DNA from: Amphibalanus amphitrite
Taxonomy: Eukaryota > Arthropoda > Thecostraca > Balanomorpha > Balanidae
Length of the DNA stretch: 64,000 nt
Assembly (NCBI RefSeq): GCF_019059575.1
Contig: NW_024881592.1
Coordinates: 1 to 64,000, forward strand
Direction of reading: 5' to 3'
Positions 3,456-57,900 of the stretch are shown piece by piece. The translations under genes and the position numbers were made by a program. The notes under the pieces are model-generated. The model did no database searches and had not been told where the DNA came from. It saw only the letters and a program-made list of their open reading frames with translations. Positions within the stretch are counted from its first letter, which is position 1. Every line of letters begins with the position of its first letter.

Positions 3456-3459
3456 TTAA

Positions 3460-4636
3460 CCCTCGCCCCGTTGGGGGGGGGCATTTTGGCCCCCCCTGTG
3501 GTTTTTCCTGAATAGCAAGAAAACGGCGGCGCGCAGCGCCGCCAAATTTTCAGTACCTTCCCGGGCATCAATTTGACACCTTCACACCAAATTTCAAGTC
3601 TTAGGTCACCTTAGGTCAGGAGTTATTGAGGTCAATCTGAGGTCATGTTCGAGCAAAAATGAGCAAAAAACATGCAATCTTGAAACGCTCACCAAATCTA
3701 GAGTTATCAAGCAATTTCAAAGTTCTTTATATGGTCTAGTAGACAAAAAGCGGTGCTACAAAACTGCTATCTCGGATTTTCAAAATTTTCGGTTTTTGAC
3801 CAAAAAAAAATTCATAAAATTAATTTTTTTAGAAAAACTTTGAAAAAATCCAAATTTTTTCCGAATTTAAAAAAAAAACGGAATATATGTGATAGTCCCA
3901 GCGCTCTTCTATATACATACCAAATTTTCAGATCGATATCTCGTTTTTTGGCCAAGTTATAGCGAAAAAACTGTTCAAAAATGATGACGTCAATTTTTTT
4001 AACTCAATTTTTAGCGATTCTAGACCACGTACGGCAAAACAAAGACCACCATTGAACTCCCTGTGACGAGCTGCATCGATTCAATACCCATTTTATGCAA
4101 AAATATTAACTTTGAAATTTGACCTAATTTGACCTGACCTTGACCTGACCTTGACCTGACCTTGACCAAAACGTGATCTAAGCTGGCCCCAAAGGCTGCC
4201 TGACCCATATAATCGCATTTGTCATGTAAAATGGACCATAAAACATGTATCACACGACACTTTCATATTGTGACCCCCCCGTGACCTGACCTCTGTGACC
4301 TGACCTGGTATCAGTGACCTCAAATAGCAAAATATGTGTTTGAAGAACATTTCCCCATCGATGATTTTCAATGAAATGCATTTTACTCGATTTTACAACG
4401 CATTTCTTGAAGTGCCTGTAAACGGTGAAAATTGGACCTTTGACCTGACCTGTGACGTCATCGGTTTGACCTAGGTCAATAAAATTGGGTCACAAGGTAG
4501 TTCCCCGTTGGGGCTATCCAACGCCGTTTACCGCTTGTCGCTATGTTGCGTGGTTCTCGAGATCTTAGGGGGGGGGGGCCAAAATGCCCCCCCCCCAACC
4601 GGGCGCGTTGCTCGGCAGAGCCCAACGGGGCGCGGG
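3460..4636 (+). mobile_element. TTAA-flanked G/C-hairpin element, copy A
   Basis: The 1177 bp element is flanked by TTAA at 3456-3459 and 4637-4640 and has CCC...GGG termini, as in piggyBac-type insertions. The left end reads CCCTCGCCCCGTTGG then a G tract, the tip CATTTTGG and a C tract. The right end carries the inverse complement of the same hairpin (4567-4598) and a second, duplicated copy of the terminal motif. I hand-count about 20 AGGTCA/TGACCT hexamers inside, against about 0.6 expected by chance. There is no transposase frame, so it would depend on an enzyme encoded elsewhere. Confidence 0.85.
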
Positions 4637-5139
4637 TTAAAGATCACCAACTGCCATTTCGCCAACCAAGTGCCATTTCGATGCCCATTTATGTTTTGAC
4701 ATTATCTCGTTTTGAAGCCACCATATCCACTTTTCGAACCGAAATGAAGATGTGCTCAGGTAGATCACGCGCCAAACATGTTATATTGATGCGAGAATAT
4801 GATTGATTTGACTCTTATGACTCTTATGATTTTCTGTTCACGTAGCCTCTCTTGTTTTTCGCGGTTCGTGCTATACATACAAGTCACAGCCTGCCTGCAT
4901 GATATATTTCCCTACCGTTTCTCATTAGCGGCATGGCTGCGCTAATGCTCACAATTATGTTTCGTTATTAATCAAACGTCGGCTTGCGGACAGCTCGCCT
5001 GCTCCACACGCAGGCAAAACACGGAACAGTGAATACGAGCTTCATATGGCCCCCATGGGCGGGGCAGACGGGGAAAGACGAACCCCGGCGTTGTTGTTAG
5101 TGATGGGGAAACAAATGTATCGGGCGATCCTGTTGTTTG

Positions 5140-5568
5140 CTACATTGTCACCTCTGTCGGGATGAGGAACGTATTGTCGTTGAACGCCATGACCGCGGTC
5201 GGGTCACGTCCGCGGCTCGCTGCCGCCGTGACACTGTGACACAGCGGCGTCGCGTCGGCGTCGGCGGCCCGTCGACGGGCCCCGCCCCCGCCCCCGCCCC
5301 CGCCCCCGCCCCCGCCCGACAGCGCGCCCCGGGCCCGGGCGGCAGTGCAGTGTTGGTTGGCGCCCTGCAGTGGCCGGCCGTGGGTCTCAGTAGCAGCCGG
5401 CTGCAGTTGCCACAGTGCCGAACCGCTGAGCCGCTGAGTTAGTGTCACGTGCTGTCGTCAAAAGTAACCGAGCGGACTCAGTGGCCGGTGTGTCGTGAAA
5501 ACGAGGGGCGCATTTGTCAGTGTCGGGTCGCTGCGCTTCTCTCTCCGCTCACGCCTGTAGCCCACTCG

Positions 5569-5662
<94 letters not shown>

Positions 5663-6311
5663 CTCTCCCCGGCGACGGCCGTGACGAAGTGACGATGTGG
5701 CCGACTCACCTGGCGTGATAGCACGTGCCCGAGGTCCGCACGAGGCCGTCACGAGCTTTACGCCCCAGCCGGCGGCCCGGCTCGGGGCGGAACCTTTCCG
5801 TCGGAACAGGAAGGGGAGGCGTGACACGCACCTGTGCACCGGCCCGTGCAAAACTGCCGCCGTGCGCGCGGTGACCCTGGCCGGCCCCGTCAGATCTGCG
5901 CTGAGAGCTCCCGATCTGTGCTGAGAGGTCCCGTCGGTCGGTCGGGTCTTTGAAGAGGACTGGACATTACGCATTAGACGGCCACTGACTGATAGCGGTG
6001 CGGTTTCTGCGATAGTGACCTAGGACGGGAGGCGCCCGCACTGCGAGCCCCGACTCTCTGACGTGAGATTAGCACACCGCTCGTGACTTTTGAGAGTCGC
6101 CCATTGTTTTGAGATTTGGTGTGTGGGCGCATTAGTTCATGATTGTGCGTTGAGTGGAGAGGATCAAGTGCCAGTGAGAGACGGAGAAGGAGAGACATGT
6201 GATCGATCATGGTGTCAGAGCGTGCCGGGAGCGAGAGACCGAGCCGGAAATGAAGAGGAAGTGGAGAAGAACGAAAAACAGCCCGTCCCTTATACATTTA
6301 GCTGGAAAAGG
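5140..6311 (+). promoter_or_regulatory. CpG-rich region, possible upstream promoter and 5' UTR exon
   Basis: This stretch has high GC and CpG, a run of CCCCCG units (5278-5316), a (CT)n tract and then GA-rich sequence ending in AAAAG followed by GTACGA at 6311, which could be a splice donor. It could be the far-upstream promoter and noncoding first exon of Mctp, which lacks another clear 5' UTR. It could equally belong to another gene. No TATA box is evident and no transcript evidence exists. Confidence 0.3.
5569..5659. repeat. (CT)n microsatellite
   Basis: About 90 bp of almost perfect CT dinucleotides inside the CpG-rich region. Long frames read across it on both strands (Leu/Ser and Glu/Arg) are artefacts of the repeat. 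Confidence 0.97.
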
Positions 6312-6539
6312 TACGAATGAATGTCAGAAGCTACGCATTGTATGTTCTCTGTCTCATCGAAGCACGTATCGCGGTTTTGCTTTGTGATAATCACCTCAAG
6401 GCCAGAGCTCATATAAGCAAATATAAGCAAATCCGGAAGCTCCGTTGTGCGGGTCATATACTAGTAAATGTGAGCCATATGGTGGACAAATTTGTATTTT
6501 ATTTGGTCGCACAGATGTGTTATAGGCGTCCAATATTAA

Positions 6540-7713
6540 CCCGCGCCCCGCTGGGCTATTCAGCCATACGCGCCCTGCTGGGGGGGGGGGGGGGGGGCAG
6601 ATTCTGCCCCCCCCCCTGTCTAACTTCCGAACCGATGGTCGTAGAAAGACGGGGAAAACGGCAATTGAAAGCTCTCAACAAGGCGGATCTTAAGAGCCCA
6701 AATTTTTTTGCTTAAGTAGGTCAGAGGTCAGGTCAAGGTCAGGTCAAGGGCACAAAATGCAAGTTTCTACAGTATCGGCCTTGCACCGTAGTTGCCGAAG
6801 AATGGACTGAGACTGATTGCCCAAAAAGTGTTCTTAGACTACCAAGACAATATTCGTTGCATACAATGTCATTCAAAGGCCAAGGTCAAGGTCAGGTCAG
6901 GTCACCAAAAACAAAATATAGAAAAGGGCATGTGCGACACATGTTTTATGGGTGATTTTACTCATAGAATGCAATAGGCACACTCAATAAGTGATATGGA
7001 CCACCTCTGGATGAATTTCAGGTCGAGGTCAGGTCAAGGTCAGGTCAAGTGAGGTCAAATTTTGAAGTTGGTTGTTAAGGCCTAAAAAGGTGTCCATCTG
7101 ATGCAGTTTTTCACGGCGAATCGAATGGTGCTATTTTTGTTTCAGTACGAGGTCTAGAACTTCCAAAAAAATCATTTTAAAATTTTTTGTGTGTCATGAC
7201 GTCATAAAATTTTGAATAACTCCCACATTTTTGAACCGATTCTTCTAAAAATTGGTATTTAGGTGCTCATAGACCAGTTCTCTGACATATATTCCGGTTT
7301 TTTCGATACACTCAAAATTTTGGATTTTATAATTATTTTCCCAAAAGTCAGTTTTTTGAAAAAAAATTGGGCCAAAATCCAAAATTTTCAAAAAACCGAG
7401 ATAGCCATTTGATAGACAACGTAGAATCACGTATAACCTTTTTTGTTACGTCTTGATTCCTTTAAAAATGAAGATGTTAGCGGCGTTTGAAATTTTGCCG
7501 TTTTTGAGGCGAAAATTGCGAACATGACGTCACTAAAACGTCAATTTCTCAAAAAATTTCCGACGGATTTCGCTCAAATTTTCAGGGAACGTGTCAAATT
7601 GATGTATGATAAGGTACTGAAAGTTTAACGTCGCTGGCGTAACGCGTTTAGAAGTTATTGGCGAAAAACGGGAGGGGGGTAGATTCTGCCCCCCCCCCGC
7701 AGCGGGGCGCGGG
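6540..7713 (-). mobile_element. TTAA-flanked G/C-hairpin element, copy B
   Basis: The 1174 bp element is flanked by TTAA at 6536-6539 and 7714-7717, and is in the opposite orientation to copy A because the duplicated terminal motif is at the left end here. The terminal motif is CGCCCCGCTG and the hairpin tips contain AGATTCTGCC at both ends. Many AGGTCA half-sites are present, including extended CAAGGTCA forms at 6860-6905 and 7020-7060. No transposase is encoded. Confidence 0.85.
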
Positions 7714-7717
7714 TTAA

Positions 7718-9380: not shown

Positions 9381-9391
9381 ATGTTACAAAC

Positions 9392-9551
9392 CAGTAGCGG
9401 CGGAACACCTTCAATTAAGGGGGGCCGGGGGGGGGGGGGCACTGCCGACTTTTGATCCCATTCTTTCCATGCAACGCCCATAGGGCTAATGTTAAAATGC
9501 CGAAATCAAAGGGGGGCACGGTGCCCCGGTGCCCTCCCCGTTCCTCCGCCT
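9392..9551. mobile_element. 160 bp MITE with 11 bp target duplication
   Basis: The direct repeat ATGTTACAAAC occurs on both sides (9381-9391 and 9552-9562). The ends are imperfect inverted repeats (AGTAGCGGCGGAAC versus AGGCGGAGGAAC on the other strand), followed by a long G tract at the left. It lies 87 bp upstream of the alternative first exon at 9639. A 9-11 bp duplication is typical of Mutator-like insertions, but the family is not determined. Confidence 0.75.
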
Positions 9552-9638
9552 ATGTTACAAACAACAGAAAGCATGATCAAGCACAATATTGAAATGAGCT
9601 CTATAAACGTGTGACCGTGTCTCAGAGGGTGAAGCTAC

Positions 9639-15900: not shown

Positions 15901-18900
15901 TTATCAACATCAACCATGTTTCTTTTCGGTAAGTGAATGCTAGTTCGTGTATTTTTATGTAAATCGTTTCTAACGTTAATTTTCCCAATCTAATATTTCT
16001 GGCGCATCATCGTGTTCAAATTGGCGGGTTCCAGCAGCAAATCGGATCTCACTTCGCCCGATAAATATGGCGACGCGGGCTGACCTTCTCCGTGGCCAGC
16101 CCACCATCGCTATGCGTCTATAATCAGCGCCCGGTGCACTTGTTTAGCGCGGCGCACACTTGGTTAGGTAACGAGCACCACCTGGGTGCGCCAGACGCCG
16201 GCGCCGCCGCCGCGCGTGCCCGCCGCGCCCCACTGTGTCTTTGTGCGCCGGGGCCCCGGTGGCGGTCAGGGGGTCATTCGGCGACTCGGAGTGACTGTGA
16301 ACACCACCATGGCCGGCACACTGAAAGCCAGAGCCGAGAAGAGCAAGAAGAAATTGGTCAAAAAGTGGCGCAATTCGACAGGGAAAGATTCGGATTACGG
16401 TTAGCGTGCAGCTCGGTTGGGGTCCCTGAGCTGAAGATTGGTTTTCAAATGATGTTTGTGGGGAGATTTGTGAAGGAACGTTTGAAGGAGGAGAGTGTGG
16501 TGCTCATGTCACCCAAAGTGCGCTGGAAAGCGCTCAACAACATATGAGAAAGTGCACATTACGTCTCTCCCGTAGCAGTGGATGGTTCAATTCAAGCATC
16601 ATTATTTTTTAGTAATGAGTATGTGTTTGACAAACAAATGTTAACAAAAGACATGATTACCAAGTAATGTATCGTCACTTTATTGGTGGTGTCTGCATAG
16701 CCATTTTCACCAGCGAAAATACCTTCTTCCAAGCGTCTCCCAGCAGGGTAACTTGCAACCACTGGTGACAGGTGCTCCCTTGTTGCAGATGTCTCTCAGA
16801 AGGACCACTCGGACCACGGAGGGGAGTCGTCGGACCCGAGCGGCTCCACCACGCCCAGCACAAAGTCGCCGCGCAAGGGTGAGTGGTGTAGCCGACCCGA
16901 CCCCTAATGGTGTCACGGGGGTCTTGGTCCGTTCATTACGTGTCGGCAGTGTTTAACCCTCGCCCATGTAGGGGGGGGGGGTTGGTGCAACCCCCCCCTG
17001 AGGCTTTTCGGAAATAGTGCAAAAATTTTGGGTACCTTATGGGGCAAACCTTGCGCATCTTTTGATAAAAAAATTTGACCGGGTCATGTCAGGTCACGGA
17101 GTTATGACGTCACAAAGGGAACAGCCTCCGGCCGGATTTTCACAAACTGAGTGCCAACGCCCGAGGTTTCCTGCCGGTGGTACGGACATCGGTTGATGGA
17201 TCGTGATGAAACTTCCCATGCATGTTGGGGCAAGTATTGGCTATCATATGGTATAAGAAACTTGACCGGGTCAGGTCAGGTCACGGAGCTATGACGTCAC
17301 AAGAGGAACAGCGTCCGGTACTATTTTTGAAAAGCGCCCGAACCACTATTTTGCTAATTCTTGTCACCTCAATGGGAATATGCAGCAATATTAGCTTCTA
17401 TAGGGAGCAAATGGACCTCCCAAATCCAAAAATACAATCAGATTTCAAAAATTTAAATTTTGATTTTTCGAATTTCTGCCGCCGACTGTGACCTTGCCGA
17501 CTTCCGGCGCTCCCAACGCGCCATTTTTAGAGCTAGGGAAACGAAATACATACCAAACGATAGAGAATTGATCAAGGAACACGATAGTGAAGGTTTCAAG
17601 TCGATATCTCCCACCGTCTTGCCGCAATCGCCGCGGAAAGTTGAAAAAGTCTATTTTTCCGAAAATTTGACCTTTGACCGGTCAAAAGTAGGTCAAATGT
17701 TGACCTAGGACCAAAAAATATACCACCAATCGCGAGATCTCGGCGAGAGCAATCCGTTGGTCTTTTCCGCTAAGCTCTACGACGCTCCGTTTTCAAACGC
17801 CAAGGGGGGGGGGTCTCACCAACCCCCCCCCCTGCATGGGCGAAGGTGGCAGATCGCCGTTTACGGGCGAGGGTTAAATTGTGTTTATATCACTGGATTG
17901 CTTTTTTCCTGTAATGGATGCAATGTCCAATGGCGCCGTGAAATCACTGCATTGTAAGAAATGTGTGCATCCCCAATATTTTAGCTGGCCGTTGACCACC
18001 CAACCGAGTCCCACTGGAAAAAGTCGGCAACTACATACTAACAACATGATCATTATTTTTAGTGAATCACCCAACTTTTGAAACGATTAGAAACCTGCAA
18101 TCAAGATGACTGCTAACATGCTGGTTTTAACTCTTACCGGCTTCTGCTTTTTACACTTGATTTGACTTGGCGTCAAAAGTCCTTGGTCCCTTAGACGAAG
18201 GCCTTATTGTTGATTCAAAACGTCTTTTTTTTTAGCTTCTCTATATATTTACGGAGTGATGGAGGCGTGGGGGGGGGGGGGGGTAGAACAAGGTCCACAC
18301 CCCCGGGTCCCAAAATCCACTTGCCTTACCGAGGTGGAGGAACATTAAAATGCAGAGTTGCCATTCTTATTCTGATTAAGCGGCATAACAATGAAAGATA
18401 ACTATTGTTTCGGTTTGGAGGTCACAGTTGCGCAAGTGCGTCCCTGTGAGCACTTGTGTAACACAGCTGTGCGTCACTCTGCGCTCCCCATTCTCAATCG
18501 TGGCGTAATTATGAAGTTTACAACTTGCCGATGTCTGAAGGATATTAAAGGGACCATCCCACCTTAACCCGCGCACCGACGGGGGGGGGGCGGATATCCG
18601 CCCCCCCCTGAGGTTTTTCGCGGATAGCGGGAAAACCGCGGCGCGTAGCGCCGCGAAATTTAGTATGACTATTCACTCATCAATTTTACACATGGTGTGC
18701 AAGTTTGAACCTCCTAACTTTAAAGGTCAGGTCACCAGGTCACTTTGAATGACCCAACCTCAAGTCACTTTTTTGCAACTTTGTCACCGTGCCAGAGCTA
18801 CAGTAGATGTCGGAGGCCTTTGAAAGTCGCAGGATGTTATTAGGTCATTAGTAGCTACAATTTGTATATCTCGGAATTTTGATGTCGGTGACCTAAGGTC

Positions 18901-21900
18901 AGGTCAATTTCGCGACCTCCCCATTATAAGTCAATGGGGGAAAAATCAACTCCCTGTTTTTACCACTAAAACGGGTCGGAATGGCCCCATATACCATACA
19001 TGACTTCACATACGATCAACCTTCACTACCTTGAGGTCTGTTTTGCTGTTGGGCAGCTGTAAGGTCATGTGACGTCATCAAAGGTCACCAAAGGTTTTTT
19101 GCCAATAACTCCTTACAGGAACAAGATACAGCCGCGCGGATGGTCTCATTGTGTTCAGCTCGTCAAGACGCATCGAATGATATACATGATGACCTCGAGG
19201 TCACGTGACCTGAGGTCAACCTTTGACCTTGACCTTTCGAGGTCAACATATATATCATTCGATGCGGATTGACGAGAGGATCACGATGATGCCCTTAGTT
19301 TGTTCCTATCTTGACTACTTCGAAAGTTATTCGAGAAAAAACCCTCTCCATATCTAGCGCCGCCATTTTGACTTTTTCGACCCCTGTGACGTCATCTTTG
19401 ACCTGACCTGAAAATGACCTTTGTAAAAATTGTAGACCTTGTCCGTGCGTATCCGATGCCGTTTACCGCTTGTCGCTATCTTGCTTCGTTCTCGAGATCT
19501 CAGGGGGGGGCGGTCATCCGCCCCCCCCCCCGTCGGTACTAAGTTGGCGCAGACCCCCGTCGGTGCGCGGGTTAACATTAGTTTTGAGTTGAGATAGCCA
19601 AGTTTGCGGCCAGGCTCAGAAACCACCATTTATCCTGGTCGCAACCCCCGCAGCTTTATGGTGTTCAAGAAATTTCTTCCCTTTACTTGCAGGGTGGGAC
19701 CAGCTTAGTCCCTATCTCTTAACCATTAGCGGTTTTTTGATGACGTCAGCAGTCATTTCAACGCCCGCCATTCCTTGAACCCGAGTTTTGCTGACCTTGA
19801 GCTCCCTTTTTTATCAACGTGAAATCCGTCGTCGGCGCTGAGAAAGCCTATTGCTTTTCATTTTAATTTGAATATTAGAAGATACCCACCACTGGAACTT
19901 GGACTGATATTATACCAAGGCCGAAGATGATCAAGCTGCCTGCTATATCTGGAGCTTGGTGTTCAACTTCAACATGGAATACAAAACAAAATATCAAAGC
20001 AAACTGGATATGGTACTGCAAGTTAAAGTCCAAAGAAATTTGAAGAGCTGACAATTGACATTAATTCTTTTCCTTCAAGGTTTCCATATGGAGATCACAG
20101 TCACACCATGAAGAAATATTTTTGATGTTAACAGTTGAAAGGGGATTTATCTTCCAGTTTTGACGAAAGACGCTGCTGACTGTCTTTGGAAAAGGATGTC
20201 GGCATGAGGTGCAATTGTGCTTGTGAAGTGGTTATAACTGGTCTTTTCACAGTATTAAATTAAATGTGCCATTGCAGCCAAGTGTGTTATCATGTAAGGT
20301 AAAATCAAAACTACAATGTTGGTTTTACGAGCATTGAGAAGGCTGGTAGGTAACACCTGCCTGTGCTCGTAAATCATGCTGCCAGAGTATTCTAAATTAA
20401 TTTTATCATACACTATTGTTGTCCAGAATGGTTGCACTATTGTTTGGTATCATATTATTCCATGTAAATATGGTAGTGTAAAGTCCGACCAACATGTTAC
20501 CAGATTTGAAGCTGTTACGTTACCTAAGTACCTGTTTTTTACTGGCGTGATGAATGTCACCTGGATTTTGTTTTGAGGTGCAGACCTAGTAACTCTGACT
20601 ACATGGGTTTGAAGCTATTATCTATTCTGTTTTTACTGGCCTGGTGAATGGCGACTGATGTTGTCCGTGGATGGCACTGAAACAAATTTTGAGTGTTTTG
20701 TACAGTGTTTTAATACAATGCTGAGGGCTGAAAGTTGTCTTGTTTAGAGTGGTGAAAGTTCAGGATATGCCAGCCACCATGGTGGGTCAGAGTTAAATGT
20801 GTTGCAGTCAGTTCGGCTTCGGCAAGCACACGGATGGGCATACGCATCAAGACCTGCTCTGCCATACTTTCAGCCAATTTTACCTAGGTAAGTCTTTTCT
20901 TTTTTCTGCCAAAAGCTATGACATTGTGAATTTCAGCACTGTGGCCTGTGTGTAGCTTTCAGGAAAGCAATTCTAAATAAAGCTCTGATAAAGTGCATAA
21001 TCAGCAATGCAGCCCTTTATTACATGTTCTACAACATCTTACTTGTTCCTTGCATGGAGAGAAAAATGCAATGTTATGAATTCGTTTATTCACATAATTT
21101 GACAAGCATGCAGTTACCTGCTACTATCACTGCACAAAACAGAGCAGAAAACATCAGTTGATTAAACACAAGACATAACAGAACCAGAAGTTTACAACAT
21201 AGGGCTGCCGAACCTGCTTCCTCCCACCACAGTTGATGCCATTTCCTAGCCTGGCTTGATGTGAGCACTGAATAGCTGCTTTGTCTAATTACAGCTCACT
21301 ACCATTCAACTTAAACTACTCTCTTTAAAGTAAGAGTGAGAGCGTTCAGTGTTCATAGCAGCTCGACAGACGACAGACAACAAACATCTTGACAAACCAA
21401 CCAGTATTTGATTTGGCTAATGATTTATGTGCTTGTTGTATCATGGCCAAACTACTTTAACAGCAATAATCCCTGTTTCATCTTGATCTTGCTTTTATTT
21501 CCATTTGAACTCAGATCTTGAAACAATCATCTGAAGTGATATCAGATACTGGCTTCTGTTTCTCTTGAAAGCAAGTTAAAACAACAATGATAAACTAAGG
21601 CAGGAGATGTGAGTTGTGGCAGTAGATTTTTGATTCAACATATGTCAACCTTATATTGCTTGAGACCTCTGTGACAGACAAACAAATATTTATAGTTTTT
21701 TGATAGTTTGGATTCTTGGCTTGATTTAGCAGATCAGCTGTGAACCCTGACTTTGAAATCACATAAATGTCATGGTACCCGAACGAATCCTCGCATGACA
21801 TTTCTTCGTAGCACAATTTTTCGTCCGCATTTCTTCGTCTACAAATCTTCGTCGGTGCATTTATTTGTCCATCAATGCTTACTCTTGCATATATTTGCGT

Positions 21901-39900: not shown

Positions 39901-42900
39901 CATCTGGAAGCGTCACCCTGCCCGTGCGCACGTGCAGTTGCACCCCTACCAAGACACGTGGAAATGCATCGCCTGGAATGTGTCTACCTCCATGCCAAGT
40001 TTTAGCGCAATCGGCCCAGTAATTACCGCGAGCTATTGCACTTATTACAAAACAGGCACCTCTTGGCTTTGCACGTGGAACGTGCGTTAGGGGTCACCCA
40101 TATGCATCGAGAGTAGCACACTATGTGAAAGAAGGAAAAAAGCTACCCAACACAAAAAACCGCACGTGTATCAGCCCAGTGGTTGCCGAGATATAAGTCG
40201 TACAAAAACGTCCCCACGGCGGCCGGCCGCTATTTAGCAGTAAAATCGTGTCGCATCCTTCTATGGGAGGTATCCCCGTCACCTGTTCGTATACTGTCTG
40301 AGCAAAGACCATACGTTACGGTCCAAACTCCATAGTGAGGCGGACATACGAATTTACGAGAGTTTAGCGACGAAATGATTCACTTAATTGTTAAGTAATG
40401 GGTACCATTAGGTAGACCATAAATTTTATCTAGCATCTCACCGTAGATGCAGTAAAAAGTGCTTTACTTTTCAATGTATATAAAGACTTGCTCAGCTCAA
40501 TCAGTTCACTCTGTATTGGCTCAAGCCGTATCATGCGAACGCAATGCAAACTAGAGCACCGACAGCGCAGCGCTCCCCAACTCACTGCTCGCCCAGTCCA
40601 CCCGGGCCGCCGCCACGACGGCCCCCCGCAAGTAGGCATCCCGCACTGCACCGACAGCCGCGGGCGACCAGCTGACCGGCCAGCTGACCGGCCAGCAGCC
40701 GGCGGGCGGCAGGGCGCGGATGGCCGACCCGCCGGCGCGGCGAGGGAGGGGAGGAACGCAGCTGAAAGACCCGACTACATATATATCAAAGAAACATTAT
40801 ATGTAATCATCGATGACGCGACATAAATCTGCTTTATTGGGGTTAGCGGTGTAGTCTGTGATGCCATCACAATGAAAATAGGCGCCTAGTTTTGTACAGC
40901 ATCAAATTCTGATTCCATAACGACTCTCGCTAGTCCATTTTCAATTGTAAATAAGCCTTTTATTGCGATGCAAAGTCCCGAAATGGTGCCGACGGCGGCC
41001 GGTCCCCCGATGGTACCATACCATAGATGGTAAACAGGTTAGTTCACATTCCCGCCGCTATGCGGGCGGCGGCGGCGCCACCTGTCCTCGTGTCCGCCTG
41101 ACACCGTAACGATATAGGTCTGAGCTCAAATCTCGGTAATGTCGTGCTTTTTTACTATATTTCTCAAAAACGGCACCACGTGCAATAAAGTTGTATATAT
41201 CATTGGAAAGAGCATCAAAAGTTGTATAAAATATCAACTTTTCACTTGAATATGTCTTCAAGGTACAAAGTTATTAAGCACCAAAGACGCTCCCATTGAC
41301 TTTCCATGTTAAAATTTTTCATTTTTAAAGAAGCCTAAAGACAACAAACGAATTTGCACAGCTTAAAGAAGCATAACAACATGTTCTATGGTCTTTTCTC
41401 AACAAGTCCTGAAAGTTTAAACAAAATCGTATCATATAATTTTGTACAATGAGCGAATGAAAAAGTCTCTGCAAAAACGCCCATTGACTTAACATGGGGA
41501 GCGAAAAAAGTTCAACTTTGACCTCGTGCAAAGACACGTTACGAAGTTCTGAGGGGTATACGGAGCACACTAGCGTGTACCTGAACGTGTTTGCCATAAA
41601 ATGCTGGGAAGAAAACCACCTCCTTCTTGGCTCGTTTTCCCGCTATTCGCGATCGCGCAAAAAGTGTCCCAAACCCCCATTGACTTACTATGGGAAAAAT
41701 GGAATCGCACGTGCCACGTGCCACGAGGTTTTAAGCGAGTAGCGACCGGTGCCATCAGGTAGATCGCCTCCGGGAGCCCATACACTGAAATTTTTAAGAA
41801 AATCGAGCCACAAGTTTAGGCCTGACCCAAGTTGCCCCAATTCGCGGCCAGACTTGCAAAACATAGCCCGGAGAAGGACCGCTCCGGTTGTTTTTCAATA
41901 GAAAAACACAATTCTAACGAATAGTGTTTGTCTTTTCAAACAACCTGCGGTTAATCGCGGGACCGCAGGTTGTTTGAGCAAGCACCTTTGTAAACGCAGC
42001 AAAAACGCCCGCCGCCAAACGAGAGGATGAGCCTTGCACGTGCAGACCGGAGTCGGTGTGCTACGGACTGACGTGCACGGCACCCTATTCGCCGGTCTAT
42101 AGCGGTGTGCCAAATTTGAGTGCAATCGACCCGGCCGTTTTCGAGATCTGGAAGCGACACCCTGCACGTGCGCACGTGCAGCCTGGGCCCCAATTGACTT
42201 GTGCACGGCACTCTATTCGCCGGTTTCTAGCGATGTACCAAATTTAATCTGAATCGGCCCAGCCGTTTCCAAGATCTGGAAGCGACCCCTACAGGTGCGC
42301 ACGTGCAGCTGCACCCCAACCGCGGCACATGAAAATAGGTACTTACTGACTTGTGCACGGCACCCTACTAACCAGTCTCTAGTGGTATGCCAAATTTGAG
42401 CACAGTCGGTCCAGCCGTTCTTGAAATATGGAAGCGTCAGCCTGCACGTGCGCACGTGCAAACTGGGTCCCATCTGACTTGTGCACGGCACCCTACTCGC
42501 CGAGCCCTAACGGTGTGCCAACTTTGATCACAATCGGCCCAGCCGTTCTCGAGATCTGGAATCGTCACCCTGCCCGTGCGCACGTGCAGCGGGACCCCAA
42601 CCGTGACACATGGAAATGCATCGCCTGGAAAGTGTCTACCTCCATGCCAAGTTTTAGCGCAATCGGCCCAGTAATTACCGAGCTATTGCGCTTATTACAA
42701 AACAGGCACCTCTTGGCTTTGCACGTGGAACGTGCGTTAGGGGTCACCCATATGCATCGAGAGTAGCACACTATATGAAAGAAGGGAAAAAGCTACCCCA
42801 CACAAAAAACCGTAAGTGTATCAGCCCAGTGGTTGCCGAGATATAAGTCGTACAAAAACGTCCCCAGACTCCCCACGGCGGCCGGCCGCTATTTAGCAGT

Positions 42901-45900
42901 AAAATCGTGTCGCATCCTTCTATGGGAGGTATCCCCGTCACCTGTTCGTATACTGTCTGAGCAAAGGCCATACGTTACGGTCCAAACTCCATAGTGAGGC
43001 GGACATACGAATTTACGAGAGTTTAGCGACGAAATGATTCACTTAATTGTTAAGTAATGGGTACCATTAGGTAGGCCATAAATTTTCTCTAGCATCTCAC
43101 CGTAAATGCAGTAAAAAGTGCTTTACTTTTCAATGTATATAAAGACTTGCTCAGCTCAATCAGTTCACTCTGTATTGGCTCAAGCCGTATCATGCGAGCG
43201 CAATACAAACTAGAGCACCAGACAGCGCAGCGCTCCCCAACTCACTGCTCGCCCAGTCCACCCGGGCCGCCGCCACGACGGCCCCCCGCAAGTAGGCATC
43301 CCGCACTGCACCGACAGCCGCGGGCGACCAGCTGACCGGCCAGCTGACCGGCCAGCAGCCGGCGGGCGGCAAGCCGCGGATGGCCGACCCGCCGGCGCGG
43401 CGAGGGAGGAGAGGGAGGCAGCTGAAAGACCCGACTACAAACATATATACCAAAGAAACAATACATGTAATCATCGATGACGCGACATAAATCTGCTTTA
43501 TTGGGGTTAGCGGTGTAGTCTGTGATGCCATCACAATGAAAATAGCCTAGTTTTGTAGAGCATCAAATTCTGATTCCATAACGACTCTCGCTAGTCCATT
43601 TTCAATTGTAAATAAGCCTTTTATTGCGATGCAAAGTCAAAACTAAGCCCGAAATGGTGCCGACGGCGGCCGGTCCCCCGATGGTCCCCCATACCATAGA
43701 TGGTTAACAGGTTAGTTCACATTCCCGCCGCTATGCTGGCGGCGGCGGCGCCACCTGTCCTCGTGTCCGCCTGGCACCGTAACGATATAGGTCTGAGCTC
43801 AAATCTCGGTAATGTCGTGCTTTTTTACGAAATTTCTCAAAAACGGCAGCACGTGCAATAACGTTGTATATATCATTGGAAAGAGCATCAAAAGTTGTAT
43901 AAAATATCAACTTTTGACTTAAACATATCTTAAACGTAAAAAGTTATTAAGCAGCAAAGACGCTCCCATTGACTTTCCATGTTAAAATTTTTCATTTTTA
44001 AACGAGCTTCAAAAGAGCAAACGAATTCTGACAGCTTAACGAAGCATAACAACATATTCTATGGTCTTTTCTCAACAAGTCCTGAAAGTTTAAACAAAAT
44101 CGTATCATATAATTTTGTACAATGAGCGAATGAAAATGCCTCTGCAAAAACGCCCATTGACTTAACATGGGGAGCGAAAAAAGTTCAACTTCAAACTCGT
44201 GCAACTCAAGTTAACGAATTCTGACGGGTATACGGCGCACACTGGCGTGTACCAGAACGTGTTTGCCATAAAATGCTGGGAAGAAAACCACCTCCTTCTT
44301 GGCTCGTTTTCCCGCCATTGGCGATCGCGCAAAAAGTGTCCAAAACCCCGTTGACTTAACATGGGGAAAATGCAATTGCACGTGGCACGCGCAATGATTT
44401 TTGTTGCGAGTAGCGACCGGTACCATCAGGTAGATCACCTGCAAAAGTCTATACCCTGAAATTTTTACGATCCTAAACGCAAAACTCTAGGCTGCGACCA
44501 AGTTGCCCCAATCTCAGGCCAACTTTGCAAACATAGCCCGGAGAAGGACCGCTCCGGTTGTTTTTCAATAGAAAAACACAATTCTAACGAATAGTGTTTG
44601 TCTTTTCAAACAACCTGCGGTTATGCATGATAGTTACACCTTGACTTTGCGCACACACCGCTGGACCCCCTGGTCTCAAAAGAGCCCCGAGGCTCTAAAA
44701 TTGGGGCTCCCTTGGCCAAATTGTGGCTACGCAGCTGCATTAAATCTTTTCAAACAACCTGCGGTTAAAATATGCATGATAGTTACACCTTGACTTTGCG
44801 CACACACCGCTGGACCCCCTGGTCTCAAAAGAGCCCCGAGGCTCTAAAATTGGGGCTCCCTTGGCCAAATTGTGGCTACGCAGCTGCATTAAAAGATCTG
44901 TCGCAGGGGCATTTGCGTCGCCAATGGCCCACTGTGTCAGCCAGGGGTCCCTATGGAATAGGGCCCCTGGCCTGGCACGATGGGGGCCCCTTTGAGCTCC
45001 AAAGGGGGGGGGGTCATGGCCCCTTGGCTACGCCCCTGACGGCAGTGCCCTAGTTGACCAGCTTTTCTGACGTTTAAGTTATCTCTCCAATTGTCCGTTG
45101 CAGTGATGGCGATTAATGCACTTGAAAAGGTGTTTTAGTACAGCGCCGAACGATGGCGTAGAATGACGCATCACTAATATGCCAATTGAGACATACTGCA
45201 CCAAGCAAAATTGTCAACTTTGGAAACGACTAGATATAGGGTTTAATCGATGTTGCCAAGCGGTGCAGGAAGGTAACTATCTCTCGTCAGGCAGGCTTCT
45301 GATTAAAAGGCGTTTTCACTTAGCGTACTTGGCGGCCGCATGTGAAAATAAGCCGATAAACCTCAGTTGAGAGCTGCCTGGTGTATGATGTGAATTGAGC
45401 TGCCGCCGATGGTCCTTATTCAGTGATGTTAGAAACGGTCATATTCTTGGCCTTGCGGACGTTTTCCAAAGCGGACATTTTCTTACAAAATAGTTACTTT
45501 TCTTACTGGACATATTTTCCCCACACACCTTGCCGACAAATCGCCATTCTTACGGCAATTTCCTATCGGAGGCAAATTCTTACACAGTTTTAAAGTTTCT
45601 TACAATGATTAAAGGTTTCAATATTTCAAACATTAGGATCAATAAAATGTAGCCTAAGACGACTAGCATCCACTGGAATGGTTGTTTGAGACGTGGCAGA
45701 TCAACTTCTTCACATTTCGTCCTACTCCTTCTTTGGGAAATGATGCCTGTCTTTGACCTTGTGTTTGACCTTGAAGGTCAAGGGCTAGAGCCAAAGTCAG
45801 GGTAGCGGAGGCTAGCCAACGAGGCTTTTGGGACCGTTTTAGCCGCTCTTTCCATGCATTCGAGACGTCATCGGGTACCCCGTCGTTTGACCTCAAATAT

Positions 45901-48900
45901 GACCTTGAAGTTCAAAGGTCAAGGTTAAGGTCATGGTCACGGAGGCTGCCCATGGTGACGAGCTATCATGTATGACCACTTACGGTCCTCTTGGGGTAAT
46001 AATTCGGGACGTTTTTGGGTATCCCGTCTTTTGACCTGGAGTTTGACCTCTAAGGTCAAACATTAGGGTCAAGGTCAAGAGAATAGAATGTAGCCCAAGC
46101 GGACAAGCATCCGCTGGAATGGTTGTTTGAAACGTGGCAGATCAACTTCTTCACATTTTGCCCGACTCCTTCTTTGGAAAATGATGCCTATCTTTGACCT
46201 TGTGTTTGACCTTGAAGTTCAAGGGCTAGAGCCAAGGTCAGGGTGGCGGAGGCTAGCCAATGAGGCTGGCCGTCGTTTGTGACCGTTTTTAGCCCGCTCC
46301 TTCCATAAATTCGAGACGTTATCCGGTACCCCGTCATTTGACCTTAAATTTGACCTTGAAAATCATACTCACGGAGGCTGCCCACGGTGACGAGCTATCA
46401 TGTACATCACTTTCGCTATCATGTATGATCACTTTCGGTCCTCTCCTCTTGGGGCAATAATTCGGGATGTTTTTGGGCACCTCGTCCTTTGACCTCAAAT
46501 TTGACATTGAAGATGACCTTGAAAATATGTTTTATGTCAGTTTTTGGGATCAGCATGTCCTACTTGACCTGATTACAAGTTTTCAGGGACTTCTAAATCC
46601 GTCGCTGAATACGTTGCTATCTTCACACACGTCTCTTTGACGGCTGGGATCGGCAAATGGACCTCACTCGTGCCTGTTTCGTGCCCCGGCACAGAGCCGT
46701 CTCTCACCCCTGTAGTCCGTTTGTCTTTCATTCTGTCACCATCCGTCTGCCCTCAACCTCTTTTGTCACAGGGTCTGACAGTCCACCGTTTGTTAGCCAG
46801 TGGAGATGGACTGCGCCCATGGTATTTGAGTTTGGTCCGTGTGGTCTCGGAGGTGGTCTCATTTCACGGTTCGTTTTGGTTCGTTCACGGTCCCGGCATT
46901 GACCCGTTCAATGTCCATACCGTCCATTCCACGGCCGCTGTTGGCCAGGCTGTCATCAGTTCCCGGCACGTATTTGCTATGCTGGGTCCGCTCTCGACCG
47001 TCTGTTTGATCCTTCAGAACTAACCAAGGTCTGTCAGAATGGACGCCTGTTATCGTGGCGTGAGTCAGGTCACCAGCGCCGAACTGATGCCTGCAGATTC
47101 CGATGTAGCTATTGAGTCCACTGTTTGTATTATCACAGGCTCCCAACAGCTAAGACTCGCAGGTCGGAACTCAACTCGCTGCTATCCCGTTTCATTGCTT
47201 TCGTCAGACGCTTTGACGCGTATTATCTCCAATTCACCTGAAGCTCAACATGTCCATTGCCTAATCCAATTTCCTTTTCGCGCAAATGCACGCGCATAGC
47301 GATCCGATACAGGCTTCGGTCCTCTCTCGACTCTTACATCTCAACACTTGGTAGGTCAAAGCGCACCTAACAGCACAATATGTAAATTCCATGAATGTTT
47401 CTCTGCTCTCAGCATTCATGCCTCGCTGCTCGTGGCGGCGTGATTGACGTTGCGTGCTCGGCCCCAAAGAACGTCTGGTGGCGTTCTGTCATCACTGACC
47501 CCTCCCCTCCACCAGAAATAGACCGCCGCCCCTCGTACCGACTTCCTGTGATGGCTAGCCCTGGGCGAGGGGGAACTGGGAGCAGGGGTAGGCTGCCGTG
47601 CGACCCAGCTCACCTACCCGGGGTAACGCCCCACCCCTACCCCCACCCGACCATCGCGGCGGTCCGTATATCTAAACAGACCAGCCATTCTGAAACTGCA
47701 CAGTCCTGCAGCAGACTGGAGAGCAGCCCAAAGGAGCAGGCGATGGCAACAGTTGATGGAAACTGACAATAGCAGCGGTCGGTGGAAACGGACAATTATA
47801 GCCGGGATTAAACGGACAAATGCAGTGACCATAAATGCGGACATTGTCTGGATAATAAATCTTGGCGTCGCTGAATTATTGTTTAGCGGGCGTGGCTACC
47901 ATCGTTTAGCTTGGCCCAACCTTGCCAACCTCTCCATGACCGGACCATGTGGCTGGGCGTGGCTGTGCCATCGGCTGGGCGTGGCTGTGCCATCGGCTGG
48001 GCGTGGCTGTGCCATCGGCTGGGCGTGGCTGTGGCATCGGTTGGGCGTGGCTGTGCCATCGGCTGGGCGTGGCTGTGCCATCGGCTGGGCGTGGCTGTGC
48101 CATCGGCTGGGCGTGGCTGTGGCATCGGTTGGGCGTGGCTGTGCCATCGGCTGGGCGTGGCTGTGCCATCGGCTGGGCGTGGCTGTGCCATCGGCTGGGC
48201 GTGGCTGTGGCATCGGTTGGGCGTGGCTGTGGCATCGGTTGGGCGTGGCTGTGGCATCGGTTGGGCGTGGCTGTGGCATCGGTTGGGCGTGGTTCTGGCA
48301 TTGTTTTGGTGTGGCTGAACCAGTTACCGGTTGGAAATCATCGGTGTTCGTGCCGCACCTAGCAAACAGACATAAAGCTATGTTCTCAGTTTTACCCTTC
48401 GCATGGTGGTGGCTGACCGCAGCATATCACATACAGTGACTGCATTTGCCGTGGCGGCTCGCCACTCCGCCCTTGGCCTTGGGCTGGACTGTGGCTCTCA
48501 TCAACCTTGCACTCACCTCGCAACGACCCTGCACGCCAGGCTGCACATCTGACACAGTGCGAGGAGAGGTCCTAAGGGGACACACGCGAAGGAGAGCGAA
48601 TGAGACACATAGCGTTAGTGGCCTTGACAGCGTGGCCCCCGAATTCGCTATGCGGCAGGGATCGATATCTACTCTAAACTGCCCGACGAAGGCCTGGCGT
48701 GTTGATTTGATTAGACATTTGTGTACGGCTTAAAAATCTTATCCTAGCCACTAGAGGAAAACTGGTTTTTGTTGTCACTGCCTGTTGGCTGGGCATTATT
48801 GATTTTGGGTGCGGAATGATACATGATTTTTACGAGAGGTCCCAGAAAGCAATGCGAGATTTGCACTGATGATCTTGATCTGTCGTCTTTTTTGTGTGTT

Positions 48901-51900: not shown

Positions 51901-54900
51901 GTTGCGACACGTGTCGAAATTTTTATCTTAAAAAAGTATCATACAGACGAGTATTTAAACACAAAGATGTTTATTCAAACCAACGAATAAAGCAACGCAA
52001 CCAACCTCATGCCAACCAACGTCATAAATCAATCGGTAATCTGCACCGGTCGTGGTGACAAATCTGCACTGATTCACACCTGCAACATAGCCTGCAGGAA
52101 TCCGCACCAGCCATGACACCATAGAGGCTCCAAATACCTATTACGAAAACATTGAGAATGCTTCATTTCTGTCGCTATGGGTAAACTAAATTGAACAAAA
52201 GGGCAAAAATTCCCTGACCGAACAATGGTGGCTCATGTGTCTACAAAAATTTTATTTGACAACATGGGTGCAGTGACAGGAATTACATAAAACATCACCT
52301 CACCGCGTTCACTGGTTGAGTGCCCAACCAAAAATTAGGTACATTTAGGTAATTTCTTGTTCAAAGCATAATGCGGTTTTAGTGTGCAAATGCTCATTGT
52401 TCAGTCCGTCTATATGTACATACTTATAGACGTCAATTGACAGTCAACAAATGAACAGTGTCTCCAACCTGAGACCCTCTAAAGCCTGGTTGGAGGTTCA
52501 ATTGAAAAGAAAATGAGTGACATAGGTACATAAACCACACTAAAACGCCAGCAATATCTGCACTGATCTTTCCCATAATCACTCACCATACCAGTAAGGA
52601 TGAAAGCCATGTCCAACAATCCATATCATTTCACTGTTTGACTTCTTATTATTCGTATTTAACACCACAGCAGCTCATTATATACTGCACACGCAACACT
52701 TATACGCCACAGCTCAGCTCCTTCACAACGCACACGTCCTCTCCCTTCTCTGACTTGGCACAGACTGAACATGGCGGACGCAGAGGGGCGCACAAAATGG
52801 CGAATTTTTTCAATTAACTAAGGTCTTTGTAATGCTACAACAAAAAGGGCAGTAAGAAAACTAAGATTGTGAGTTACAACATGCGTTTGATGTGTTAGTT
52901 AACACGTTATCCCAGAAAAAAGGCAAAGGAAGCATAAACAAAGAGGTTTGTCAAATAACACGGCATGGTTTGCACGGATAATATTTGTCGGCTTACAATG
53001 ATGTTAGCTTTTCTGCTTCGATGAAATGGATGTGGTGTTAGGTTGCAAACATATGTGTTATCTGACCCGTTTTTTGCAACAACGTGTGTTTTAATACTAG
53101 ATTTTGCTTGAAGAATTAACTAACTGGTTTGTTAGCATTTTTTACAGTGTAGTGTCGAGTTGCTGTCCGACCGGGCGGACCAGTCCGGGGTGGGTTGGCA
53201 AGGCCGTCTGAACTAGTGCAGTGGTCAGACTCGCCGGCCCACGCGCCCAGTCCGCCTTCACCAGAATACAGCGCAAAGCTCACCACGTGCGTTGACCGGG
53301 TTGGGTTGGCCTGTAATACTCGTACAACACAATATAGCTCGGTCAGACCGCCTGCAACACAACAACACAAGACAACACACAACACAACAACTCAGCAAGT
53401 CCGCGCATAGCAACGCAACATAACACAGTTCTGCCAGTCAGCCCGCGGCAAAACGCACTCACGACGGCTTTAACGGTTTCACAGAAGTCCCGTGCCCCTC
53501 TTTGATTTACATCACTGAATGGACTGGTGTGTTATTTGGGGTTTTAGACACGTTTTCTATTTTTCGCGACAATGGCCAGACTCAAAACATGGGAGCAACA
53601 CCGCCACGAGCCTGGTGAGGTGATCGAGTCCATTGGCACACAGCATCGTTAGCTGTTCACTGACGTCAACATCTCTTCTCACTGGTGGCAGCTCTCCCGG
53701 TCACTGACGCCGGTCACCCATACGACAAAAATCATATTCAGAAGCATAATAGTCTTATTGTACTACAGCTTTGAAGTTTTTTTAATGAGCTATTTTTGCT
53801 GCACTAATTGCATGACTTTTTATGATCCGTGACAAAGCATTTTATTGTTTTGGACGTTTTTTTTCAGGGACCAGCGACCCGTATGTCAAATTTAAGCTCG
53901 GTGGCAAGGTGGTCTGCAAGTCGAAGATCGTCTACAAGACGCTGAACCCTCTCTGGGACGAGTGGTTTCAGATTCCGATCGACGACCCCTACGTGCCGCT
54001 GCAGATCAAGGTCGGTGCCCGGAGGTGACAAGGATAGGTCGCAGTTCGTGACTCGTTTTTAACGTTTGATTGTTGATGTTGAAACTTGTACAGATGTTTG
54101 GAGCACAGTTTGGAGCAAGGTGACGGCCAGGATTGTGCCGTCACCTTGGCTGAGTTGTGTCTCGGTAAAATTGAAAATGTACCGTAGTTTTATTAGTATT
54201 TTCAAAACTTTTTGACACCAAGATGCACTAGGATTGTACAGCCTAATTTCTTACGAAGTCAGCCGTTATCGTTTGACTATACATGACCTGATGTTCCCAA
54301 TAATTCGCCAGGTGTACGACCATGACTGGGGCATGAACGACGACTTTATGGGCGAGGCGGAGCTAGACCTCAGTACCCTGGAACCCAACAGGTGAGCAGC
54401 CTCCATCGATAACGTCGATTCGATGAGGCGGAGCGGGACCTCAGTACCTTTGAACCTAGCAGTAGCGTTCGCCGATAATTATCCCTAAGTTAGCCGATTA
54501 GTGTTTACATTTGCATGTTCCGATTACGTTTACATGGGATCTAGATGTTTTATAACAGCTATCCCTAAACCTCGATTTCGTAATAATATTTTAGGAAATA
54601 TTCCTATAACATGAGACGATTTTTCTGCAGAGAAAAGTATTATGATTTATAGATTGTTATTATTTGAAATCTACATATTACTACCTGCGCTGCCTGATGG
54701 ACCAATCCAATATGTTTGCTGCAAACAATTAAACTACTATAATCGCTCTTAACCCTCGCCGGCCGGGGGGGGGGGCGGGTGCCGCCCCCCCATAGGGTTT
54801 TTTCGCGATAGCTCCGAACACGCTGGCGATAGAGAGCTGAAACTTGGCATACCTGACCTTTGATCCAAGCCGGATCTTTTGACACCAACCGCATTTTTGG

Positions 54901-57900
54901 GTCAGGTCAGGTCACTGACCTATGACGTCATAAGTGAACCTCTGCACGGTCTTCAGATGTCGCAACTTCGCAACGCCCTCACTGCCAGAGGAGATGTCAC
55001 AGGGAAATGAAACTTGCAGGATCTAATATCCATTATGCGTCCCACAACTTGTATATCTCGGATTTTTCCTAAAGGTCATATGAGGTCAGGTCATTTTCGT
55101 GACCTCACCATTATAAGTCAATGGGGAAAAATTCAAACTGCTATTCTGGCGCCGGGAACGATCTCCAACTATCTCAAGCACACAGAATCGTGATTTGATG
55201 CACTCCTTGCAAGGTTAGATGCGTCACTTTTGCAATGTTGACCTTGCGTGACGTCATTTATGACGTCATCAAGGTCAAATTAGTTTTTCGTCAAAAACTC
55301 TTGTTCAAATTGAGCTAGCGAGTCGGGAAAGGCACCAATGGACTCAGGAAGGCCTGCCGAATCGAATGATATGCGACATGACCTCTTTCGACCAACTTCG
55401 TGACCTGGGGGTGCTGACCTGACCTTGACCTGAGGTCAACACCCCAAGTTGACCTGACCCGGACAAAAAGTATATCATTCGACGCGCCTGAGCGAGGCGA
55501 ACACGATGCTGCCAAAATCGGCGCTCTGCGGCCGTTTTTTGGCGAAGTTATTCACCAAAAACTGAACCGTACCCTGGGGCACTTGACCTGACCTCAGAGG
55601 TCACCGGTTGACCTAGGACCTTAAAATCGGGTACCAATCTCTGCGTCTCGTAACGGCGCACACGCTCGTTTTTTCCGCGACGCGCTAGCTCCACCAGGGG
55701 CGAAACGGCGAGGGGGGGTCGTACCCGCCCCCCCCCCCCTCGGCCGGCGCGTATGTAGAAAACCAATAGGTCCGGCGAGGGTTAAGAAGTATATTATTTT
55801 ACCAGCGCTGTTCTCCTCCTGTTTTCAGAGAGCAGGAGATGACATTGAACCTGTCCGACTCTGCCAAGTCGGGCGAGCAGGGAAGCATCACACTGGCTGC
55901 CAACCTGGTGCCAAAATCCAAAGAGGAACGGGAGCAGGTCAGTTATGCTTTGACGTAAAACCGGGACAGGGAGGCTCACACAAGGCGTGGTCGTGTAACG
56001 GTTCGCAGTTGATTGTATTCGGAGGATAAGCCTGATTTGGACTAATTATGACATTTGGACATTCTAACTATGCCGTGACATGAGCTATGACATGCCTCTG
56101 TTCTTCAGTTACTGTCTGTTTTCTGTCAACTCTGGTTTTGCTAATGTTACTGAATGATTGTGGACCTCTGCATACCGCGGTATGCAGATGTCTATGGTGT
56201 TATGTAAATGCATTGAAATATGCGTAGGAAGAAGGTACAATACCGAACTATCAATGCCAGGAAGGAAGGGTGGACAGATAATGGTGCCAACCTTACTTTT
56301 AATACTCCTGTGGGCAGGAAGAGGTCGTTGCCTTGTTCCGGGAAGGGCATGGATAGATAGCCAGTTCATGGTCAGTTCTCACAAAAAAAGGATGTGGACG
56401 TTACTGTGGTAAAAGGATGTGGACGCTATATTCACTGTAGTGTTTTTTATATGGAACGTTCAGAGCTATTATATGAATTTATTATCACGCATCTAATTGT
56501 ACCAGCTACGCAATAGTTGATGCTCAGCAACCATCCAGATGTGTGTGGAAATCGCAGTTGATAATATTTTTATATAAGCAAAAGCTACAAAGTTATTCAC
56601 ACCAAGCAATCCGACTACAGCTAAATGCCTTCTTGGAGGATGTGTGCAGTGGAACACCCTTAAGTGACCACCTCTGACTCTGGCGTGTATTCAGACAATT
56701 AGTATCTTGAACATCGAAATTACACTCATTAGACATCGTTGGGGATAATACCGCAGGTGTCACAGACAAATGATTGATCCGGTTTGCTAGACTTGAATTA
56801 TCTCCAAAGGTGTCATTAGGAATGCACCTCCGAAAGTTTGCACTGTTTTAGATTATTAGGTATACTTATTGTTAATTTTTACCCAAGGCGTTTTATATCG
56901 TATCCTTCATCATCTTTTATCAACGCTCTGAGCCTATGTCTTTTTTCCTTTAATTGCATGACGTCTTGGTCTGAAATAGATATGTGATTTTCCAAGCACT
57001 TTGATTCCATAACCATGATCGATCATTGTTTTTTTGTCATAACTGATTACTGAATGTACGCTGAAGCTTTTGAAATAATTAAGATAATGTTTCTGACGGC
57101 GTCATCGCTGCGCCAGACGCCGGATCCTGCTGGTATCAGGGACTGGCTACGCAGGCATAGCTTCACGCCGACAGATTGTGTCACTAAGGCAAGCCAGCAT
57201 TCATTTATATAACCACGAGCATGTCTTCTGGACCCTGATAGCGCTTCTGGGCTATGAAATAATAACGAACGGGCTTCAACCAAACTAATCAGCTGCTTTA
57301 AAATGTACTCTGCCTGAAACACGCATGTCAGATTGCGAATAAAATCACAATGCAGTAAATAACACGCAATTAATTTCGGGGACGGGATTTCTTTGCACGC
57401 TCGCAATGCTCACTGGGCTTGAGTGTTCTATAGATGCGATCGTATCTTATTGTGAAGAGCAATGCTTATCTTTGTGCGCGTTGGCAGATGGCTAGTATGA
57501 AATTTATTGCACTGATTGGCACCAGAAAACCCTCGCACTGCAGTGAAACACGATGTAAATACAGTTTTCACGGCACTGAACTTAAATGGAATAGCTTTGG
57601 GTAGCTGCCGCAGCAGCATACGATGCCGATGGCCACGGGAAAATAAGCTATTGCGCAGGGCGATGGGGCATGCTGTTTCGTTCAGCCTCCCCGCGAGCTC
57701 ACCGTCATTGTGCAGCATTGAAGCTTGAGTTTTGGGGCCTGTTCACAGCTGCATTGGGCCCCAGCATATGACTATCACTTGAGCCCCTTTGCCGGTCCCG
57801 TGTCAATTCACAGTGCCACTATGATACAGGGCACAGGGCTCTAGGCCAACCCAACCAAGTCAAACAAACAGCTACTTATGGATAACGCAGGAGATGAATT

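Follow-up and report, generated by a model that had tools for sequence, protein, structure and literature searches.

Copy-specific, left-right matched end tags on six TTAA elements of Amphibalanus amphitrite, in an arrangement resembling that of piggyBac

In a 64-kb stretch of contig NW_024881592.1 of Amphibalanus amphitrite, called the window here, we analysed six TTAA elements (A-F) whose ends reproduce the arrangement of the piggyBac transposon ends with different letters. We take this as the main result. Each element carries a short motif and a palindrome at its ends, and these tags match between the left and the right end of one copy but differ between copies. We consider it probable that A-F are non-autonomous piggyBac-type elements, in which the matching tags would be paired transposase-docking sites of several end-specificity subfamilies.

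Each of the six elements, 0.9-1.2 kb in size, is bounded by TTAACCC and GGGTTAA, and TTAA, as read from the element ends alone, was found at both ends in 6/6 cases. At all 12 ends, a tip of 8-10 bases is enclosed between a G-run and a C-run, the G-tract and C-tract arms measuring 6-18 bases. A G-tract/C-tract hairpin inside each end of the six copies was the starting point of the original prediction, and a palindrome is indeed present at 12/12 ends. The window holds 12 palindromes of the form G6+..C6+, one per element end, compared with a mean of 0.02 and a maximum of 1 in 100 first-order Markov shuffles; a 13th, weaker palindrome with a C-run of only 5 lies at 18269-18304, away from any element end.

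Are the tags matched specifically between the two ends of the same copy? Six left and six right ends allow 720 possible pairings. For the tip, the true pairing scored 37 in inverse orientation and was the single best of all; the true pairing of the outer motif also ranked first (1/720), and for the 7 nt ahead of the inner palindrome 4/720 pairings were as good. With the motif anchored on CGC, we obtained 1/720 for left versus right outer, 2/720 for left versus right inner and 2/720 for right outer versus right inner. The 40 nt inside the palindrome, used as a control, were unremarkable (357/720 pairings as good). Mean identities were calculated over the 6 within-copy pairs and, between copies, over 15 left-left, 15 right-right and 30 left-right pairs. 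Tips are 84% identical within copies, 43-45% between copies and 43% when shuffled, the corresponding values for the outer seven-base motif being 88%, 56% and 49%, whereas the six bases after TTAA reach 97% within and still 90-91% between copies. Over the 60 nt inside the palindrome, left-left identity between copies is 63% and right-right identity 57%, as compared with 49% for the left-right comparison within a copy and 47% after shuffling. From the terminus inwards, a universal end sequence thus gives way to a copy-specific block, this to an end-specific flank and this in turn to a core that is only partly shared, four zones in all. Within-copy agreement of the ends together with divergence between copies, as originally proposed, is what the tip identities and the rank of the true pairing bear out.

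Identical left and right tips occur only in A and E; B, C and D show two differences each and F three. The left tip of F fits the right tip of D (score 5) better than its own right tip (score 3), and a copy's own pairing is the row best in 5/6 cases for the tip, but the unique row best in only 3/6 for the 7 nt before the palindrome. Both C and F have an altered right outer motif, the inner motif of D lacks CGC, and the inner right motif of B is identical to the motif of E. The strings quoted in the original prediction are present in A (CATTTTGG with CCAAAATG) and in E (GTGTTTGAACAC with GTGTTCAAACAC, and three copies of CGCCCTGCTGG); the motif GCACCGACGG assigned to D stands at both outer ends, but the third copy, further in, has TACCGACGG instead. 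A flip-flop of the tip, recognizable by a match in direct orientation, was considered and rejected: the direct total is 14 against 37 for the inverse one, and a general flip was therefore set aside. Only B scored higher in direct orientation (7 versus 5), and the direct score of 14 is still unsurpassed among the 720 pairings, an outcome expected of near-palindromes. Membership among Foldback elements, which carry long, internally repetitive inverted repeats, was also discarded, since the left-right likeness ends at the palindrome, as seen from the 40-nt control and from the near-shuffled identity over 60 nt.

Beyond their match with the opposite end, the tips are themselves symmetric. Of 52 dyad pairs, 33 are complementary, compared with 14.5 expected (P about 5e-5); the null was obtained by permuting positions alike at both ends, and 1/20,000 trials was as high. 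The palindrome is better at one end than at the other in B, C, D and F, as would be expected if an originally symmetric site had decayed after insertion. The tracts around the tips are of unequal length within copies, e.g. G-runs of 10 and 18 in B and C-runs of 7 and 11 in A.

The arrangement of these pieces closely follows that of piggyBac (IFP2) of Trichoplusia ni. Numbered from the first C that follows TTAA, the left motif begins at 5, the right outer copy likewise at 5 and the right inner copy at 32 in A-E; in F the inner copy starts at 33, so that the shift is 27 in five elements and 28 in one. In the T. ni piggyBac ends, the left copy of the repeat AAAGATARTC begins at 7 and the two right copies at 7 and 34, again with a shift of 27 (from the accessible portion of PMC3078864). 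On the ends taken from that source, we computed that the 19-bp piggyBac palindrome starts at 17 on the left and at 45 on the right, a shift of 28. The G-run starts are shifted by 27, 25, 27, 27, 27 and 30 in the six elements in turn, and the tip centres lie at 26.5-31.5 on the left and 54.5-63 on the right (shift 26-33), next to dyad centres of 25 and 53 in piggyBac. The ends are asymmetric in 6/6 elements, with motif and palindrome on the left and motif, insertion, motif and palindrome on the right. A-F thus share with piggyBac (LE35/RE63) the TTAA target, the CCC terminus, three motif copies, two palindromes and asymmetric ends. They differ from it in the sequence of motif and palindrome, in their G-tract/C-tract arms, in the lack of a transposase gene and in that the ends of neighbouring copies differ.

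One might object that only six copies were compared and that G/C tracts are of low complexity, so that unrelated TTAA elements could look alike by chance or through a shared simple-sequence composition. We regard this as practically negligible in view of the 12 palindromes where 0.02 are expected, the true pairing being the best of 720 for both tip and outer motif, the motif shift of 27-28 bp in 6/6 elements, the shared end flanks and the partly shared cores.

In T. ni piggyBac, the same palindrome occurs at both ends and is the docking site of a dimer of a transposase domain. By analogy, the end 'hairpins' of A-F are most likely dimer sites, and matching within a copy is most likely the ordinary state for such elements. 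We propose that every end presents one docking unit, in which a short motif (CGC and 5-7 variable bases) precedes a long dyad made of G-tract, variable tip and C-tract; this unit adjoins the terminus on the left and lies 27-28 bp further in on the right, behind an extra motif copy. A dimer of the C-terminal cysteine-rich domain of the transposase would bind the palindrome in duplex DNA, and the terminal motif would be contacted by those transposase parts that hold the terminus. Because one transposase reads both ends, the motifs and palindromes of any one copy would have to agree. We would then be dealing with several, perhaps six, end-specificity subfamilies among the six copies, each presumably mobilised by a separate transposase lineage encoded at another place in the genome. 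Layout, spacing, within-copy match, tip symmetry and the lack of a long coding frame are direct observations; we infer that a piggyBac-family transposase moves the elements, that its dimer binds the dyad and that selection for matching keeps the ends alike. Such selection for binding at both ends explains why the tips are symmetric, why a third motif is present and why the spacing is that of piggyBac. Of the three readings originally offered, many subfamilies with coevolving ends fits best, since the layout matches that of the T. ni piggyBac ends with their common palindrome and dimer site.

A second of these readings, a pairing of the ends by hairpins, is not needed, because under the piggyBac layout a protein bound to duplex DNA suffices to account for the dyad. 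It would have the G/C palindromes extrude as DNA hairpins or form G-quadruplexes that pair both ends, with the tip as a loop-loop 'key'. Indeed, single-strand DNA folding gave a hairpin at the palindrome in 8/8 ends folded (those of A, B, C and E, out of 12), with z below -2.5 in 6/8 ends and z of -0.69 and -1.37 in the other two; however, every long palindrome folds so. Moreover, most tips are self-complementary, so that hardly any loop would be left free to pair with the opposite end, and we therefore consider such a role of extruded structures very unlikely.

If the tags are docking sites, can they change between related elements? In the bat Myotis lucifugus, the cysteine-rich domain of piggyBat reads a palindrome unrelated in sequence to that of piggyBac, as presented in the part of PMC11707139 at hand; thus, such sites do change between relatives. 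According to the same portion, piggyBat has a short motif in repeated copies and, next to it, an imperfect palindrome to which the cysteine-rich domain binds as a dimer, in which piggyBat resembles A-F. A partial precedent for a turnover of tags comes from the CMITEs of Acropora corals, which are TTAA-targeting, non-autonomous elements of piggyBac type whose terminal repeats vary more than the interior between families; the terminal repeats are left-right matched in families I-III, while the termini of families IV-VI match less well (excerpted text of PMC2872659). Unlike A-F, CMITEs are ~100 bp long, have terminal repeats of 13-14 bp and exist in several to many copies per family, and no G/C or paired palindrome was found described for them in the excerpted text.

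The unusual part of our observations is a near-complete turnover of the tags among elements whose adjoining end sequence can be alike. The best local matches between cores are 68% over 584 bases for D-E, 73% over 166 for A-B and 83% over 93 for D-F. For A and D, the flanks inside the palindrome are 82% (right) and 77% (left) identical, but the tips are just 40% and 50% alike; the binomial P of this contrast is 0.004 on the right and 0.06 on the left. Single tip pairs between copies reach 60-70%, the left tips of D and F 70%. Since the tips are on average at shuffled level even where flanks are alike, turnover has been fast or block-wise, and this at both ends.

Tips and motifs that simply follow the phylogeny of the cores would instead point to ordinary subfamily structure. 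We compared four pairs with related cores (A-B, D-E, D-F, E-F) with the 11 others, using rounded identities from the six copies. Right tips are 54% identical in related-core pairs versus 42% in the others, with 36/720 relabelings as good; left tips show 45% versus 42% (288/720), and both tips together give 132/720. The motifs do not track the cores at all (outer 54% versus 57%, 420/720; inner 49% versus 53%, 456/720). Tracking of core descent by the tips is thus a weak hint at most, one-sided and due mainly to D-F, which shifts the balance very slightly from our preferred explanation towards end-to-end homogenisation.

This turnover bears on the third of the original readings, a homogenisation from end to end, according to which the tips would be read loosely or not at all by the transposase and drift freely, while fold-back pairing or repair of the single-stranded or cut element would transfer the short block that lies between universal terminus and C-tract from one end to the other, the ends then matching within a copy without any need to. 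The variable pieces do lie between universal anchors (TTAACCC[G/T]CGC, G-tract and C-tract), and matching stops at the C-tract; tips of different copies average shuffled level, the alike flanks and unlike tips of A and D are as block replacement would give, and the hairpin blocks of E show 98% complementarity over 42 nt. End-to-end copying accounts for the block-like change and for the inner boundary. On the other hand, the lengths of the G- and C-tracts were not equalised within copies, as recent copying would tend to do (slippage is fast, though), the tips retain their dyad symmetry, and the agreement of the third, inner motif would call for a further copying event. We hold homogenisation to be a possible but doubtful explanation. 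Selection and copying may also act jointly, in that copying makes a matched pair and selection retains it. An unlikely variant would treat palindrome and motif as an exchangeable specificity cassette between universal G- and C-tracts, in which one end first receives a new block, which the other end then acquires by copying; the tracts would serve as recombination handles, and elements could switch the mobilising transposase while keeping body and end-flanks.

Several points weigh against our preferred explanation of A-F as piggyBac-type elements with paired docking sites. The motif starts at 5 instead of 7 as in piggyBac. The piggyBac terminus is given as CC[C/T]T in the excerpt of PMC2872659, and only 5/12 ends agree with this form (CCCT), 7/12 being CCCG, although CCC is found at 12/12. 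The tip of A is barely symmetric, with 1/4 pairs complementary, and the limits of the motif were chosen by eye from the end alignment with CGC as anchor. No transposase was identified in the six elements, where no frame exceeds 95 codons (the element frames were not run through a family search). The piggyBat element, of the same superfamily, is autonomous and arranged differently, its left end having three palindromes and its right end lacking them, going by the portion of PMC11707139 at hand. Likeness of the A and D flanks without likeness of the tips is poorly explained by point mutation and selection, and six different tags on six copies within 64 kb are a lot to ask of separate transposases. 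As for membership among miniature inverted-repeat transposable elements, there is no long frame and there are six copies in 64 kb, yet the length is 0.9-1.2 kb.

Other systems share single features with A-F. Tm1 of root-knot nematodes (Mutator/Foldback) also has composite terminal repeats with internal motifs; unlike A-F, it makes 9-bp target duplications, has repeats of variable length and does not use TTAA, and no copy-specific palindrome was found described in the available section of PMC3169594. Neither homogenisation nor gene conversion was found mentioned for Galileo in the accessible text of PMC4168063. A literature search with the terminal strings of A-F returned titles that were not about transposons. 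The terminus of Kolobok, which also uses TTAA, presumably differs from that of A-F. Exact-pattern scans of public viral and genome contig collections, in which records from this genome or a closely similar one may be missing, gave no further copies; the genome-contig scan and two of the viral-contig scans matched nothing. Among 107 viral-contig loci with a matching left end, none had a G6+..C6+ palindrome 5-50 bases before GGGTTAA within 6 kb of that left end, and the one viral-contig match examined showed a G-run without a following C-run in the stretch read.

Should the tags be docking sites, a single genome contains a natural series of recognition palindromes, matched left to right and carried by elements that are otherwise partly related; with it one could ask directly how the specificities of a transposase and of its ends change in concert. 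Were the tags instead kept alike by copying, the series would show the homogenisation of ends at base resolution. In addition, the occurrence of the piggyBac layout with its 27-bp shift on other letters is in line with a functional constraint on the asymmetry itself.

Element A (3456-4640, + strand) is 1185 bp long and non-coding, with a longest stop-to-stop frame of 88 codons. Its left unit (3464-3496, +) comprises the motif CGCCCCGTT at 3464 and the palindrome G9-CATTTTGG-C7 at 3473-3496; at the right end (4568-4640, -), the outer motif runs from 4632, the inner motif CGCCCGGTT from 4605 and the palindrome from 4596 to 4568, its tip being the left tip when read from the end. A fourth motif copy, CCCCGTTGGG, lies in the interior of A at 4503-4512 (+); a search of A-F for interior copies of the own motif with at most one mismatch found only this one, and none in B-F. 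Element B (6536-7717; 1182 bp, longest frame 79 codons) is oriented opposite to A, on the - strand, with the double-motif (right-type) end at 6536 and the left-type end at 7717. The former (6544-6616, +) carries the outer motif CGCCCCGCT at 6544, the inner motif CGCCCTGCT at 6571 and the palindrome at 6580-6616 with the tip CAGATTCTG; the latter (7674-7717, -) has CGCCCCGCT from 7709 and the palindrome 7698-7674 with the tip CAGAATCTA.

The remaining four elements are on the + strand. Element C (16953-17877, 925 bp, longest frame 93 codons) has palindromes at 16971-16998 (tip TTGGTGCAA) and 17832-17804 (tip TTGGTGAGA), and also contains an internal direct duplication in which 49 core bases are repeated 187 bases further at 90%. 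The palindromes of D (18564-19575, 1012 bp, 73 codons) are at 18581-18608 (tip CGGATATCCG) and 19531-19503 (tip CGGATGACCG). In E (22307-23509, 1203 bp, 95 codons), the palindromes 22324-22355 and 23465-23436 both have the tip TGTTTGAACA, and the motif CGCCCTGCT occurs three times, at 22315 (+), 23501 (-) and 23474 (-). Element F (54749-55785, 1037 bp, 78 codons) carries its palindromes at 54765-54791 (tip CGGGTGCCG) and 55739-55712 (tip CGGGTACGA). A second palindrome, [GC]GCGGCGCGNAGCGCCGC[CG], is common to the left ends of A, D and E, inside the G/C palindrome (3525-3543, 18637-18655 and 22385-22403).

AGGTCA/TGACCT occurs densely inside each of the six elements, with 7-21 occurrences per copy and 101 in total (both strands, 6,544 bases), as compared with 2.6 expected; outside the elements, 67 are found in the other 57,456 bases. 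AGGTCA is a nuclear-receptor half-site. The string TGACGTCA, which may be a cAMP-response-element-like (CRE-like) site, occurs in 5/6 elements, 11 times in total versus 0.08 expected, and 4 times outside. It is possible that the interiors hold arrays of nuclear-receptor half-sites and CRE-like sites spread by transposition. A region at 45720-46570 is also rich in TTGACCTTGA/AGGTCA, its two halves being alike by eye; it contains one GGTTAA (45928), no TTAACC and no G/C palindrome.

Several other repeats occupy the window: an inverted repeat at 1504-2492 with 230-base arms that are 84% complementary and short units with GCTAGTGAC, a long TAGGG/TAGGGG array at 27809-28650, a tandem-like array at 33245-44624 with spacings of about 1.9-2.7 kb and smaller repeats within its units, and a 22-bp tandem repeat at 47885-48390 (about 506 bases), open in several frames. 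In a Pfam search of eight window frames, which fell within elements only by chance of position, a C2 domain fragment was the only domain detected (Pfam C2, E 1.1e-4); it lies in the frame at 58015-58350, which is probably an exon of a host gene.

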